From an uncultured Wenzhouxiangella sp. (GTDB lineage: Bacteria > Pseudomonadota > Gammaproteobacteria > Xanthomonadales > Wenzhouxiangellaceae), in NCBI GenBank assembly GCA_913057195.1, contig CAJXNL010000014.1, forward strand, positions 1 to 53,551: 53,551 nt of DNA, written 5' to 3'. Positions within the stretch are counted from its first letter, which is position 1. Each line of letters starts with the position of its first letter. Below are positions 1 to 40,092 of this stretch, piece after piece. The notes beneath the pieces are model-generated. The model ran no database searches. It was not told the DNA's origin and was given only the letters and a program-made list of their open reading frames with translations. A program made the position numbers and the translations under genes.

Positions 1-1196
1 ACCTGATTGTTCAGCGCATTGAATCGCATCAAGGCATCGAACGCCGCCTCATATTGCCCCAGCGCCTGATACACATAGGCAAAACCTTCATACACCGAGC
101 GCTGCTCATAGGGCCGATCCATGGAATTTAGAATGGTTTCGGCTTGCTCATATTTGGCCAGGGCTTGATCGTAGTTTTCCTCTAAATAATAGGTCACGGC
201 CTGATTGATGTGATTGATGCCCACACCATAATCCAAGCCCAATGATTTTGAGATTTCCAACGCCTGATCGAAATACTCCAGCGCCTGCGGATAATCGCCC
301 ATATCCCGGAGCACGTTGCCGAGGTTGTTATAAAACATGGCCTCGACCACCGCATCATCCAAGGCACGCGCTTGCGCCAACCCGTCTTCGTAGACCGCCA
401 ATGCTCGAGCGTTTTCATTGACTTGCCGATAGGCCGCCGCTTGCGATAGGCGCACACGAACCAACAGCGCCGTTAAGCCTGCCGCATCGGCGACCTCCTC
501 AGCACGTGAAAAATACCGAAGTGCTCGCTCGGTCTCATTCAACCGCCGCGAGACATCGCCCAAAGACAAAAACAGCTCGCCTTGGGTGATGGGTTCAATC
601 CCCTCCACCTGCAGCCCGTTCAGATACACCTCCAGCGCCTGCTCAAACGCCCCAGTCGCTGCGTGCACATCCCCCACCCAGCGCTGAATATCGGCCGCCA
701 AGGGCTGATCTTGCGCCAGCTGACGCGCTTTGATCAAAAACTCCAGCACCCGATCGTCCGCCGCCACCCCAAAAGCCAGCCGACCGGCGCCAAAGTAAAT
801 GTCTCTGGCCATTTGGAGGCGAAGACGCGGTGCAGTCTCGTCCACCCAATCCATCAGCCGGGTCACCTCATCGGTCGTGAGGACCGACTCGCCACCTGCC
901 AGACGCGCCTCAATCCACGCACCCACCGCCCGGGGGTCAGAAAAATCAACGGCCTCCAACGGCTCACTGCCCGGCGCCGATGACGATGCCTGAGCGATGC
1001 GCACCTTTTCGTCCATTTGAGTCGAGCTGGACTCGACCGGCGTGGGCGGCGCCTGTTTCGATGATTGTGTCGACGACTGTGCTGACGACTGTGGTGACAG
1101 CTGCGCCCCACCCAGCATCGGCCATCCAAGGCACAAGCCGCACAGCAGCATCCAAGCCAGCGCGGTCTGATGTCCGATTGTCGATCGCTTATGCAC
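1..1196 (-). CDS. Secreted TPR-repeat protein, 3' end cut by window edge
   Basis: One continuous minus-strand frame of about 398 codons enters from the left edge, so the C-terminus is missing. The GTG start at 1196 gives a basic N-terminus (MHKRST) and a hydrophobic stretch rich in Leu, Trp, Cys and Gly at about residues 13-35, read as a signal peptide; an in-frame ATG at 1151 is an alternative. A Ser/Gln/Thr-rich linker follows, then repeated helical units typical of tetratricopeptide repeats (for example YNNLGNVLRDMGDYPQALEYF, and ALGQYEAAF near the edge). TPR arrays are protein-interaction scaffolds; the partner cannot be read here. The start overlaps the ppnN stop by 8 nt (GTGCATAA), so the two are probably co-translated. 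Function unknown; TPR plus export is well supported. Confidence 0.8.
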   Translation of the reverse strand, partial: MHKRSTIGHQTALAWMLLCGLCLGWPMLGGAQLSPQSSAQSSTQSSKQAPPTPVESSSTQMDEKVRIAQASSSAPGSEPLEAVDFSDPRAVGAWIEARLAGGESVLTTDEVTRLMDWVDETAPRLRLQMARDIYFGAGRLAFGVAADDRVLEFLIKARQLAQDQPLAADIQRWVGDVHAATGAFEQALEVYLNGLQVEGIEPITQGELFLSLGDVSRRLNETERALRYFSRAEEVADAAGLTALLVRVRLSQAAAYRQVNENARALAVYEDGLAQARALDDAVVEAMFYNNLGNVLRDMGDYPQALEYFDQALEISKSLGLDYGVGINHINQAVTYYLEENYDQALAKYEQAETILNSMDRPYEQRSVYEGFAYVYQALGQYEAAFDALMRFNALNNQ

Positions 1197-35991: not shown

Positions 35992-37041
35992 TTAAATTGC
36001 CCCTCCGTCGATCAGCCCCTCACCGGGCCAGTCCAGCCCCTCCAGCGCTGGGTTGAAACAGCTCGGCTCGGGGCAGGCATCGAGCAGCAGCTGTGGGGTG
36101 GCATCGGGCCGATGCATGGTTTGACTTAAACGCTGCCGCCACCCGCGCGCCCCTGGCTGGCCATGAAACAACCCCAGCATGTGGCGGGCCACCTGGTGCA
36201 CTCGCCCGCCTTGTTCAACGTGGGCGTGAGTGTAGTCCACCATCCGCTCGACCACCCAGCGCCGAGAAGGGGGCACCGGTTGGCCCAGCTCAGCGGAGAC
36301 TTCCGCCAAAAGCCAAGGCATTTGATAGGCCGCCCGACCCAGCATGACGCCATCAAAGGTCTGAAGCTGATCGACCACTTTGGCCACCGAATCAATCCCC
36401 CCATTAATGATCACTTCAAGATCGGGGAAAGCGCTTTTCAAAGCCGCCACCCGCGGATAATCCAAAGGAGGCACCTCTCTGTTTTCTTTGGGGCTTAGCC
36501 CCTTCAGCCATGCCTTTCTGGCGTGCACCACCACCGTGGTGATCCCCGAGGTGATCGCCTGATCGATGAACGCCAAAAACGCGTCTTGAGAATCCATCTC
36601 ATCGACACCGATGCGACACTTCATGGTCACCGGTGCATCCGTGGCTTCGGTCAGCGCCGACAAACACTCCGCCACCAAAGCGGGCTCTTTCATCAAGCAC
36701 GCGCCAAAGCGGCCCTTTTGAACCCGATCAGAAGGACAGCCCACATTGAGGTTGATCTCATCATAGCCATACTCACAGGCCACGGCAGCGGCGCGCGCCA
36801 GTTCATCGGGCGCCGAGCCCCCCAGCTGCACCGCCACAGGGTGCTCGCTGGCATCAAAGCCCAATAGCCGGTCTCGGTCGCCATGAATCACCGCGCCGGT
36901 GGTGACCATTTCGGTGTAGAGCCACGCGGTGGGCGCGAGCAAACGGTGGAAGTAGCGGCAGTGACGATCGGTCCAGTCCATCATCGGCGCCACCGATAAC
37001 GTGCGCGGGGGAAGCGGGTGTTGTGTGGCGGCGGCTGACAT
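35992..37041 (-). CDS. dusA: tRNA-dihydrouridine(20/20a) synthase DusA
   Basis: 349 aa from the ATG at 37041. FMN TIM-barrel with SVAPMMDWTDRHCRYFHR at the N-terminus (the DusA form), the catalytic Cys in NVGCPSDRVQKGRFGACLM, MKCRIGVD, VHARKAWLKGLSPKENREVPPL and the FMN-phosphate site NGGI/GRAAYQMPWLL. It reduces U20/U20a in the tRNA D-loop using NADPH. The longer frame to 37086 would overlap the divergent oxygenase. A TACAAT hexamer ends 6 nt before the ATG and there is no SD, pointing to a leaderless mRNA. Confidence 0.93.
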   Translation of the reverse strand: MSAAATQHPLPPRTLSVAPMMDWTDRHCRYFHRLLAPTAWLYTEMVTTGAVIHGDRDRLLGFDASEHPVAVQLGGSAPDELARAAAVACEYGYDEINLNVGCPSDRVQKGRFGACLMKEPALVAECLSALTEATDAPVTMKCRIGVDEMDSQDAFLAFIDQAITSGITTVVVHARKAWLKGLSPKENREVPPLDYPRVAALKSAFPDLEVIINGGIDSVAKVVDQLQTFDGVMLGRAAYQMPWLLAEVSAELGQPVPPSRRWVVERMVDYTHAHVEQGGRVHQVARHMLGLFHGQPGARGWRQRLSQTMHRPDATPQLLLDACPEPSCFNPALEGLDWPGEGLIDGGAI

Positions 37042-37047
37042 CGCTTC

Positions 37048-37068
37048 ATTGTAAATTTTATTTATAAT
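37048..37068. promoter_or_regulatory. 21-bp palindrome with two divergent -10 elements (dusA / oxygenase)
   Basis: Arms ATTGTAAAT (37048-37056) and ATTTATAAT (37060-37068) around TTT form an inverted repeat with one mismatch. The right arm ends in TATAAT (37063-37068), 6 nt before the oxygenase ATG at 37075. The left arm, read on the minus strand, ends in TACAAT (37053-37048), 6 nt before the dusA ATG at 37041. -35 matches are poor on both sides. The AT-rich block stands out in GC-rich surroundings. Confidence 0.6.
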
Positions 37069-37074
37069 GGGCGC

Positions 37075-38037
37075 ATGGACAAACAAGCCACCGACCGCAT
37101 CCCCGTTCTCTCACTGACCGATTTCACTGGCCAGCGAGACGCCTTCACCGACACCTTGGGTCAAGCCTATCGCCAGTTTGGGTTCATTGGCATCCGAGAC
37201 CATGGCATTGATCAGGCCATCATCGACGAGGCCTATGCGCAATTTAAAGCCTTTTTTGCCTTGGACGACGAGACCAAAGCACGCTACCACCGGCCTGGCA
37301 TCGGCGGCGCGCGGGGCTATACCGGCTTTGGGGTGGAGCAGGCCAAAGACCACAGCGTGCCTGACCTAAAAGAGTTTTATCATGTCGGCCGCGAGATTGA
37401 ACCCGGCCAGCCCAACCCATGTCCCGATCAGCTCCTGGCCAACATCTGGCCAGAAGAGACCCCTCAGTTCAAGCAAGCCGCGGTCGATCTTTACAACGCG
37501 CTTGATGCGGTGGGGACCACACTGCTGTCGGCCATGGCGATTGATCTGGGCCTGGATGCCGACTGGTTCAATGACAAAGTCAACTACGGCAACTCCATTC
37601 TTCGCCCAATCCACTACCCGCCGATTGAGGCGCCCCAGCCCGGTGCGGTGCGGGCCGCACAACATGAAGACATCAACTTGATCACGCTGCTGATCGGTTC
37701 GAAAGAACAAGGCCTGGAGATCCTCACCCGCGATGGCGACTGGATTCCGGTCGATACCTTGCCCGGCACCATCGTCGTCAATGTCGGTGACATGCTGCAA
37801 CGTTTGACCAACCACGTGTATCTATCGACCACCCACAAAGTGGCCAACCCCGATGATGATCACTCCACCGCAGCCCGGTATTCGATTCCCTTTTTCCTTC
37901 ACCCCAATCCGGATTTTTTGATCAAGACCCTGCCCGGCTGCATCAGCGACGACAACCCCGATCGCTACCCCGAGCCCATCACCGCTCACGGGTATTTGAT
38001 GGAGCGCCTCAACCAGATCGGCTTGTTGAAAAACTAG
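37075..38037 (+). CDS. 2-oxoglutarate/Fe(II)-dependent oxygenase, isopenicillin N synthase-like
   Basis: 320 aa. N-terminal DIOX_N-like region (IPVLSLTDF... QFGFIGIRDHGI) and a C-terminal double-stranded beta-helix with the Fe(II) triad H197-x-D199 (AQHEDIN) and H254 (THKV), plus R268-Y-S270, which binds 2-oxoglutarate in this family. IPNS itself uses no 2-oxoglutarate, but the RxS motif is kept in both groups. The substrate is unknown; bacterial members are usually annotated only as COG3491 oxygenases. No antibiotic biosynthesis genes are nearby. Probably leaderless (see 37048-37068). Confidence 0.85.
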   Translation: MDKQATDRIPVLSLTDFTGQRDAFTDTLGQAYRQFGFIGIRDHGIDQAIIDEAYAQFKAFFALDDETKARYHRPGIGGARGYTGFGVEQAKDHSVPDLKEFYHVGREIEPGQPNPCPDQLLANIWPEETPQFKQAAVDLYNALDAVGTTLLSAMAIDLGLDADWFNDKVNYGNSILRPIHYPPIEAPQPGAVRAAQHEDINLITLLIGSKEQGLEILTRDGDWIPVDTLPGTIVVNVGDMLQRLTNHVYLSTTHKVANPDDDHSTAARYSIPFFLHPNPDFLIKTLPGCISDDNPDRYPEPITAHGYLMERLNQIGLLKN

Positions 38038-38131: not shown

Positions 38132-38785
38132 TCAGCGAGACTCGACGCCGGTTTCGGTCGCCACCAGCACTCGATCCGCCCCACGGCGGGCGAAGATCCC
38201 GGAACTGACCACGCCGGCAATCTGATTGATGGCGGTTTCGGTGCTCACCGGGTCAACCAAATCCAACCCCCGCACATCCAGAATCAAATGGCCATTGTCG
38301 GTGGTGATCCCATCACGAAGCGCCGGTTGCCCACCCAGCGCCACCAGCTGACGGGCCACATAGGCTCTGGCCATCGGGATCACCTCCACCGGCACCGGAA
38401 ACTCACCCAACACGTTCACGCATTTGGTTTCATCGACAATGCAGATAAACTCGCGAGCCGCCGCGGCAATGATTTTTTCTCGAGTCAGCGCCCCACCCCC
38501 GCCTTTGATCATGCGCCGATGCCCATCGACCTCATCCGCGCCGTCGATGTAGAGCGACAAATCCCCGGTGTGATTGAGATCAAGCACATCCACACCCATC
38601 GCATTCAGACGAGCGGTGGTCTCATCGGATGACGAGACCGCGCCTTTTAAAGGGATCTTGGCCGTGGCCAAAGCGTCCATAAACGCATTGACCGTCGATC
38701 CTGTGCCCACGCCCAAAACCATGCCCGCATCGACGTGCGCCAATGCCGCTTGGGCCACTTCTATTTTCAGTCGCGCTTGGCTCAT
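38132..38785 (-). CDS. rpiA: Ribose-5-phosphate isomerase A
   Basis: 217 aa (E. coli 219) from the ATG at 38785; the longer frame overlaps the upstream gene. Signatures [31 protein letters not shown] and [13 protein letters not shown] contain the substrate loop, the catalytic Asp/Glu region and Lys. It interconverts ribose 5-phosphate and ribulose 5-phosphate. Starts 4 nt after the EVE gene, in a unit EVE-rpiA. The 38038-38131 gap holds only short GC-rich inverted repeats. Confidence 0.95.
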
Positions 38786-38789
38786 TCCA

Positions 38790-39257
38790 TCAGCCGGCGT
38801 GCTCAAGCCCAATCAGGTAGTCCCATTGGGCATCGGTCACGGGCATGATGGAGAGTCGGTTGCCCTTGCGAACCAACGGAAAATCGCCCAAATGATCGGC
38901 GTGTTCTTTGATCTCAGTCAACGAAATGACCCGATCCGTGTGGCGAACATACTGGACATCACGAAGCAACCAGCGAGGCGCCTCAGGCGAGCTTTTCTCA
39001 TCAAAGTACTGTGAGTGCGGGTCAAACTGCGTGTGGTCGGGGTAAGGCTCAGAGGCGATGGTCATGATCCCAACAATGCCTGGGACCTTGCAGTTGGAGT
39101 GATAGAAAAAAGCCCGATCGCCCACACGCATTTGGTCGCGCATAAAATTTCGGGCCTGGTAGTTTCGAATCCCGTCCCAAGGCTCGATGCCTTTCGGACA
39201 GGCTTTCAAATCGTCGATGCTGAACGCATCAGGCTCAGACTTCATTAACCAATTCAT
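38790..39257 (-). CDS. EVE-domain protein
   Basis: 155 aa, the whole length being one EVE (PUA-like) domain: [16 protein letters not shown] at the start, [24 protein letters not shown] and PGIVGIM. EVE domains form an aromatic cage and are related to YTH readers of modified bases; in bacteria they occur as modified-cytosine or tRNA/rRNA-linked proteins, with exact targets mostly unknown. It sits 4 nt after the fau stop and 4 nt before rpiA on the same strand, so it belongs to the fau-EVE-rpiA unit. No restriction or DNA-modification genes are nearby. Confidence 0.9.
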
Positions 39258-39901: not shown

Positions 39902-40092
39902 GACGCCCTCCGCCGATGCCGCTGTGGTTCAGTGACCTTGAACCAATGGGTTCAAGTGGGTCGGCTCTTGGCTGCTTTAGGCGATTCGCTTTAAAACGAA
40001 TATGCTCACCACATCCAAATCCGCCGTCCCGAGGTCAATCAATAGGGACAAGGCATATTACATTCCCACTGGCGAACACCGCAGAGAACGTC
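39902..40092 (-). ncRNA. ssrS: 6S RNA
   Basis: The 237-nt gap between zapA and fau holds a 6S RNA on the minus strand. The closing stem is 12 bp (GACGTTCTCTGC at 40092-40081 with GCGGAGGGCGTC at 39913-39902). The 3' half carries the hairpin TTGAACCCATTGGTTCAA and GCGGCATC, nearly as in E. coli 6S; GGTGTTCGCCAG and GTGAGCATATTCG match the expected arms and central bubble. The 5' end is probably near 40095, given -35 TTGATC (40130-40125), 17-bp spacer and -10 TAGACT (40107-40102), the -35 lying inside zapA. 6S RNA mimics an open promoter and sequesters sigma-70 holoenzyme in stationary phase. Confidence 0.9.

Follow-up and report, generated by a model that had tools for sequence, protein, structure and literature searches.

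Back-to-back, probably leaderless promoters in the 33 bp between dusA and an oxygenase gene, and the occurrence of similar arrangements in the same bacterial order

Introduction

Leaderless mRNAs made from a -10 box that lies 6-7 nt before the start codon are well described in Mycobacterium tuberculosis. The short interval between dusA and a divergently oriented gene for a 2OG-Fe(II) oxygenase, in an uncultured member of the genus Wenzhouxiangella, resembles those genes in that the -10 spacing would put +1 on the ATG, and in the lack of a Shine-Dalgarno sequence. It is unlike them in that two such promoters face each other within 33 bp, and do so in a gammaproteobacterium.

A different type of comparison is with bidirectional promoters. 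According to PMC10268837 and PMC12825309, these form a class in which the start points are 7-25 bp apart, mostly 18, and the -10 element is shared, and polymerase exclusion is described for starts at those distances. Facing -10s, and divergent starts too close for two polymerases, are common to that class, as portrayed there, and to the present locus; here, however, the -10s are separate, the distance between the predicted starts is greater, and both products would be protein-coding mRNAs starting on ATG. Restriction-modification systems are also pertinent, as PMC5333194 describes divergent promoters with overlapping core elements for EcoRV and CfrBI, and a leaderless C transcript for AhdI. 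The likeness is that overlapping divergent promoters couple two genes and that leaderless transcripts occur. In that account, though, the traits belong to different systems, being leaderless in AhdI and overlapping but not leaderless in EcoRV, and the regulator is a C protein, whereas no regulator is known for dusA and the oxygenase. Both leaderless mRNAs and closely spaced divergent promoters are known by themselves, and their combination as a conserved design was not found in the literature searched; specifically, no paper recognisable as dealing with leaderless dusA, leaderless queG or divergent leaderless promoters in pairs came out of a search of open-access literature.

The intergenic region

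The window, i.e. the whole stretch of 53,551 nucleotides that was analysed, is part of a genome of 1.775 Mb that is 98.9% complete. Throughout, ‘order’ refers to the GTDB order, NCBI placing the genus Wenzhouxiangella in Chromatiales. The features of the locus, together with the comparable gene pairs dealt with below, are collected in Table 1.

Read directly from the sequence, the gap between the dusA ATG on the minus strand and the oxygenase ATG on the plus strand is 33 bp. The dusA start is the sole in-frame ATG candidate of its frame and is 17 codons ahead of the APMMDW core, and the nearest solved chain to the oxygenase is 3oox_A, itself a putative 2OG-Fe(II) oxygenase (E 4.8e-88). An earlier note on this DNA had pointed to a -10 hexamer exactly 6 nt before each ATG, TATAAT on the plus strand and TACAAT on the minus, and the sequence confirms both. 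Its statement that neither gene has a Shine-Dalgarno sequence also holds by eye, no such run being visible before either ATG; the gene list made for a sample of the genome flagged no motif of this sort for the oxygenase start, and that list omitted dusA. The hexamers are, as had been described, the ends of one near-perfect inverted repeat, whose 9-bp arms have a single mismatch (where one -10 box has C and the other T) around a 3-bp centre. The A/T spacer between the boxes would occupy roughly -14 to -22 with respect to either start. At a distance of 17 bp the -35 positions, judged by eye, are poor on both strands (ATCGCT at 37040-37045 on the plus, ATGCGC on the minus), and each would-be -35 site overlaps the start codon of the opposite gene.

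Table 1. Features of the dusA/oxygenase locus (window positions) and other gene pairs with a -10-like box 6 nt before both start codons
Feature	Location or occurrence	Strand	Basis, remark or gap between boxes
dusA, tRNA dihydrouridine(20/20a) synthase, 349 aa	35992..37041	-	NCBIfam equivalog NF008774, 485.6 bits (cut-off 269)
dusA start codon ATG, predicted mRNA +1 (37041)	37039..37041	-	sequence read
dusA -10 box TACAAT, 6 nt before ATG	37048..37053	-	identical in 3/3 genomes with the pair
21-bp inverted repeat, outer parts being the two facing -10 boxes	37048..37068	.	
9-bp A/T-only spacer common to both promoters	37054..37062	.	putative role
Oxygenase -10 box TATAAT, 6 nt before ATG	37063..37068	+	identical in 3/3 genomes with the pair
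Oxygenase start codon ATG, predicted mRNA +1 (37075)	37075..37077	+	sequence read
2OG-Fe(II) oxygenase, 320 aa, DIOX_N and 2OG-FeII_Oxy domains	37075..38037	+	
rpiA	38132..38812	-	beyond the oxygenase from dusA in the window
queG/nnr	43 genomes: 42 in family f12, one in f3		8-28 bp
prmC/alpha-beta hydrolase	12 loci, one genus		10-15 bp; further prmC loci named by eye
mpl/TusA-like	2 genomes		5 bp; TusA model below cut-off, Pfam above
queC/queE, both queuosine-pathway genes	L185 (G155), around 1003-1058		28 bp
dtd/lipid A acyltransferase-like			12 bp
dusA/acnD	L189 (G378), around 1004-1047, another family of the order		16 bp
YiiD-type thioesterase/MFS	the window's own genus		25 bp
TetR-like/MFS	G332		18 bp

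Conservation and gene order in relatives

A dusA match was present in 60 of the 61 genomes searched, paralogues being included among the matches, and the oxygenase in 24 of the 30 searched within the genus. The two genes adjoin in only three genomes of the genus, G000, G007 and G021, and in these a gapless alignment covers the 39 bp that include both start codons. The -10 hexamers are identical at 12/12 positions in all three, whereas the remaining part of the 33-bp gap is so at 7/21 (Fisher P 1.6e-4, this and the other P values assuming independence of sites and genomes), with the N6 stretches keeping 1/6 and 2/6 positions, the latter being the stretch between box and ATG on the oxygenase side, and the 9-bp interior between the boxes keeping 4/9. 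The three genomes are far apart, since only 36 of 212 fourfold sites of the two genes (22/107 and 14/105) are identical in all of them. The interior is A/T at 9/9 positions in G000, 8/9 in G007 and 9/9 in G021, and its symmetry beyond the hexamers extends to three of four pairs in G000, none of four in G007 and four of four in G021. From sequence comparison, then, what is conserved is the boxes, their distance to the ATG and an A/T-rich interior, and not the full dyad. With regard to the conservation that had been looked for in relatives with the same gene pair, the promoters stand, hexamers and N6 spacing being present in 3/3, and the inverted repeat does so only in part.

When not linked to dusA, the oxygenase gene has glmM directly upstream in all 17 loci fetched from the genus, often with an ATGA overlap (glmM was named by HMM in three of the loci, and four more genomes in which the oxygenase is unlinked lie outside the 17-locus set). 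Among the 15 unlinked loci with an assigned start, none has TAnnnT 4-8 nt before it, versus 3/3 paired loci with the box at 6 nt. In several relatives (e.g. L023, L024, L028, L030, L031) rpiA directly precedes dusA on the same strand, and in G000, G007 and G021 the oxygenase sits between the two. Other neighbors are also encountered. In L025, L029, L032 and L035 dusA is divergent from an EVE-like gene (named by eye; it has no NCBIfam match), and in L039 and L040, from other Pseudomonadota, one of them a Novosphingobium, a relative of the oxygenase, at 51-53% identity, and an EVE-like gene are in divergent orientation.

Spacing of -10 boxes before start codons

Whether the distance of 6 nt is distinctive can be judged from dusA at large and from other genes of the same genome. 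In a set of 54 dusA loci (30 + 24, one of them partial), a TAnnnT box at a spacing of exactly 6 from an in-frame ATG is present in 12, and the other spacings between 0 and 30 average 0.9 each; the remaining 42 loci have no such box at spacing 6. Nine of the 12 are outside the three genomes with the dusA/oxygenase pair, and two of these nine are in other families. For the window's genome, the sample comprised 453,551 bases (stretches totalling 400 kb plus the window) and the in-frame ATG candidates of 350 predicted genes. Here TAnnnT occurs 13 times at spacing 6 against a mean of 3.5 at other spacings (Poisson P 8e-5), and the stricter TAnAAT five times against a mean of 0.475 (P 1.4e-4). The gene finder was of a crude codon-usage type, and its list of 13 spacing-6 genes, which misses dusA itself, includes mnmA, epmB, ubiG, a gene for an OxyR-like regulator, zipA and ppnN, with several of the 13 boxes being weak (e.g. 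TAGGCT, TATGCT).

Recurrence of the double arrangement

With at most one mismatch allowed, the fixed pattern CAT-N6-ATTNTA-N9-TANAAT-N6-ATG was found in 13 of 299 genomes of the order, and the reversed pattern in 2 of 299. Exact matches came from five genomes, three with dusA/oxygenase and two with queG/nnr, and the one-mismatch match in G284 is likewise queG/nnr. The other ten fixed-geometry loci that were examined, all of family f9, did not show two long ORFs at both ATGs, two of them (L110 and L123) not being located at the expected place.

When the gap between the boxes was left free at 0-30 bp, ACAT-N6-ATTNTA...TANAAT-N6-ATG occurred in 37 of 398 genomes of the order and its reversal in none, and the TCAT form in 39 of 397 with one reversed; substitution of N10 for N6 on both sides gave one genome of 398, and one for the reversal. 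The samples for the ACAT, TCAT and N10 patterns overlap heavily, and the 37 and 39 matching genomes are 65 different ones. The searches cover only pairs with T or A after the ATG of one gene (ACAT and TCAT). The excess in the order derives mainly from one family and one pair, with queG/nnr accounting for 43 of the 65 genomes (beyond the representative, its loci were named by BLAST versus L115, and in L149 only nnr was recognised).

The loci read were 30 of the ACAT form, 30 of the TCAT form and 15 further stretches, leaving out e.g. second hits of G124, G153, G173 and G325. Among them nine pairs, dusA/oxygenase included, have plausible ORF starts on both sides, the names given in Table 1 being based on NCBIfam or Pfam matches for one representative of each pair. 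As the variable-gap patterns gave gaps of 5-28 bp, the exact N9 geometry is not special, and N9 as a required gap was rejected. The interiors of many of these arrangements are GC-rich, and the queG/nnr spacer is not A/T-rich. Divergent pairs involving HutF (G174, G293) were not counted, as HutF would there begin about 43-47 residues inside its model, and G169, G148 and G136 were rejected as pairs because they have no two genes at the ATGs. By these sequence criteria the double, putatively leaderless design recurs in this bacterial order. Outside the order there is little or no excess, since a class-wide sample for the TCAT form gave matches in 7 of 323 genomes versus 4 for the reversal; three of these matches (G668, G537, G451) have longer ORFs on both sides. 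That in G668 (L199), where yidD and an unnamed ORF are divergent, has its N6 boxes, with a gap of 7, in a near-perfect long palindrome.

Proposed mechanism and alternative explanations

The reading preferred here, which we regard as probable, is of two minimal sigma70-type leaderless promoters that stand back to back and are mutually exclusive, with the palindrome being for the most part a consequence of the way the two -10 boxes face each other, and no operator. A -10 box 6 nt before an ATG should place the first base of the RNA on the A of that ATG, so that both mRNAs would be leaderless. This had been proposed in the earlier note, and comparison lends it support: the N6 spacing is kept in the three genomes with the pair, box occurrence peaks at spacing 6, and the version with N10 is found in 1/398 genomes as against 37/398. 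RNA polymerase covers far more than 34 bp. As the predicted start points are just that distance from each other, polymerase bound at either promoter would also occupy the second, and only one gene would be initiated at a time. The A/T spacer may take the place of the poor -35 boxes on both strands, which would be an alternative to the activator that the earlier note had suggested on account of them; according to PMC12825309, the lack of a -35 can be made up for by AT-rich sequence near -18. Given that the queG/nnr interiors are GC-rich, an A/T interior is not a general part of the design. From an evolutionary perspective, the dusA half is probably the older promoter because a box of this kind also precedes dusA in other relatives that do not have the oxygenase next to it, and the oxygenase would have moved between rpiA and dusA from behind glmM, the gene orders being observed and the direction of the move being our interpretation of them.

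The symmetry of the region invites a different explanation, namely that the inverted repeat is an operator at which one symmetric regulator, perhaps responsive to oxygen or iron, switches both genes, much as the earlier note had suggested. We consider this quite unlikely. Arms of 9 bp with a single mismatch, and the continuation of symmetry into the interior in G021 and for the most part in G000, are in its favor, and a palindromic operator would be natural in G332, in which an MFS transporter gene is paired with a TetR-like gene. However, interior symmetry is absent from G007 although both hexamers are kept, three of four complementary pairs are not rare by chance in an A/T-only interior, and facing -10 boxes look symmetric by themselves. 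The same double-N6 design is also present at other pairs whose gaps and interiors differ, and dusA and the oxygenase are apart in the other members of the genus examined. A search of the 1.775-Mb genome for the 21-bp palindrome, with up to three mismatches, found no second copy, and on this ground it was rejected as a regulon site, though a single-site local regulator would need none. The involvement of one symmetric DNA-binding protein is thus unsupported, by virtue of the absence of interior symmetry in G007, the uniqueness of the palindrome and the presence of the design elsewhere at other gaps. For coupling of the two genes through oxygen or iron no evidence emerged, the oxygenase being directly behind glmM in every fetched locus that lacks the pair.

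A further possibility is that of a bidirectional promoter in the published sense, taken in a wider form such that one shared -10 region is opened both ways. Both start sites would be within 34 bp, the -10 boxes are turned towards each other, two polymerases are unlikely to bind at once, and PMC12825309 describes such promoters as having low basal activity and showing competition. Against this, the predicted starts, 37041 and 37075, are 34 bp apart and so outside the 7-25 bp of the described class, and there are two separate conserved -10 boxes, 9 bp apart, instead of one that is shared; this explanation is judged unlikely. Lower again on the scale, and in our view very unlikely, is that only dusA is leaderless, with the TATAAT before the oxygenase being either a chance match in AT-rich sequence or a -10 that serves a longer transcript at a different position. 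The stretch around that TATAAT is indeed AT-rich, and the plus strand has no good -35 at 17 bp (the ATCGCT noted above), but TATAAT-N6-ATG is identical in the three genomes with the pair while the intervening stretch from box to ATG is largely changed, and no such box precedes the unlinked oxygenases with an assigned start.

Broader implications

A more general proposition, which is offered tentatively and is perhaps rather doubtful, is that back-to-back leaderless promoters would be a recurrent class of the order, mutually exclusive in use and preferential for enzymes that modify the translation machinery, with output tied to the choice made by polymerase and to ribosomes competent for leaderless mRNAs. 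Modifiers of that machinery in such pairs are represented by dusA twice with different partners, queG, queC/queE, prmC and dtd. At least one gene for tRNA or release-factor modification is present in six of the nine pairs, or seven with the TusA-like gene counted, a striking but raw proportion, in which queG/nnr and prmC dominate one family.

If true, the arrangement would be close to the tightest drive for two divergent genes, at 33 bp and with a leader on neither side, and would provide natural DNA for studying the choice of direction by polymerase, as well as the way in which enzymes that modify tRNA and release factors use leaderless translation in a gammaproteobacterium. From a practical perspective it is a warning that what looks like an operator palindrome between divergent genes may instead be a pair of facing -10 boxes.

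Other observations in the window and its genome

Single boxes at the same spacing are found before other genes. Within the window, on the minus strand, an EVE-like gene (named by eye) at 39257 has TAGAAT-N6-ATG, and ppnN at 2613 has TATTCT-N6-ATG; both are likely leaderless. Elsewhere in the window's genome epmB, which functions in EF-P modification, is preceded by TAAACT at 6 nt from the ATG (L057:6270, minus strand). The window also contains a 6S RNA gene, at 39903-40090 on the minus strand (Rfam RF00013, 90.9 bits).
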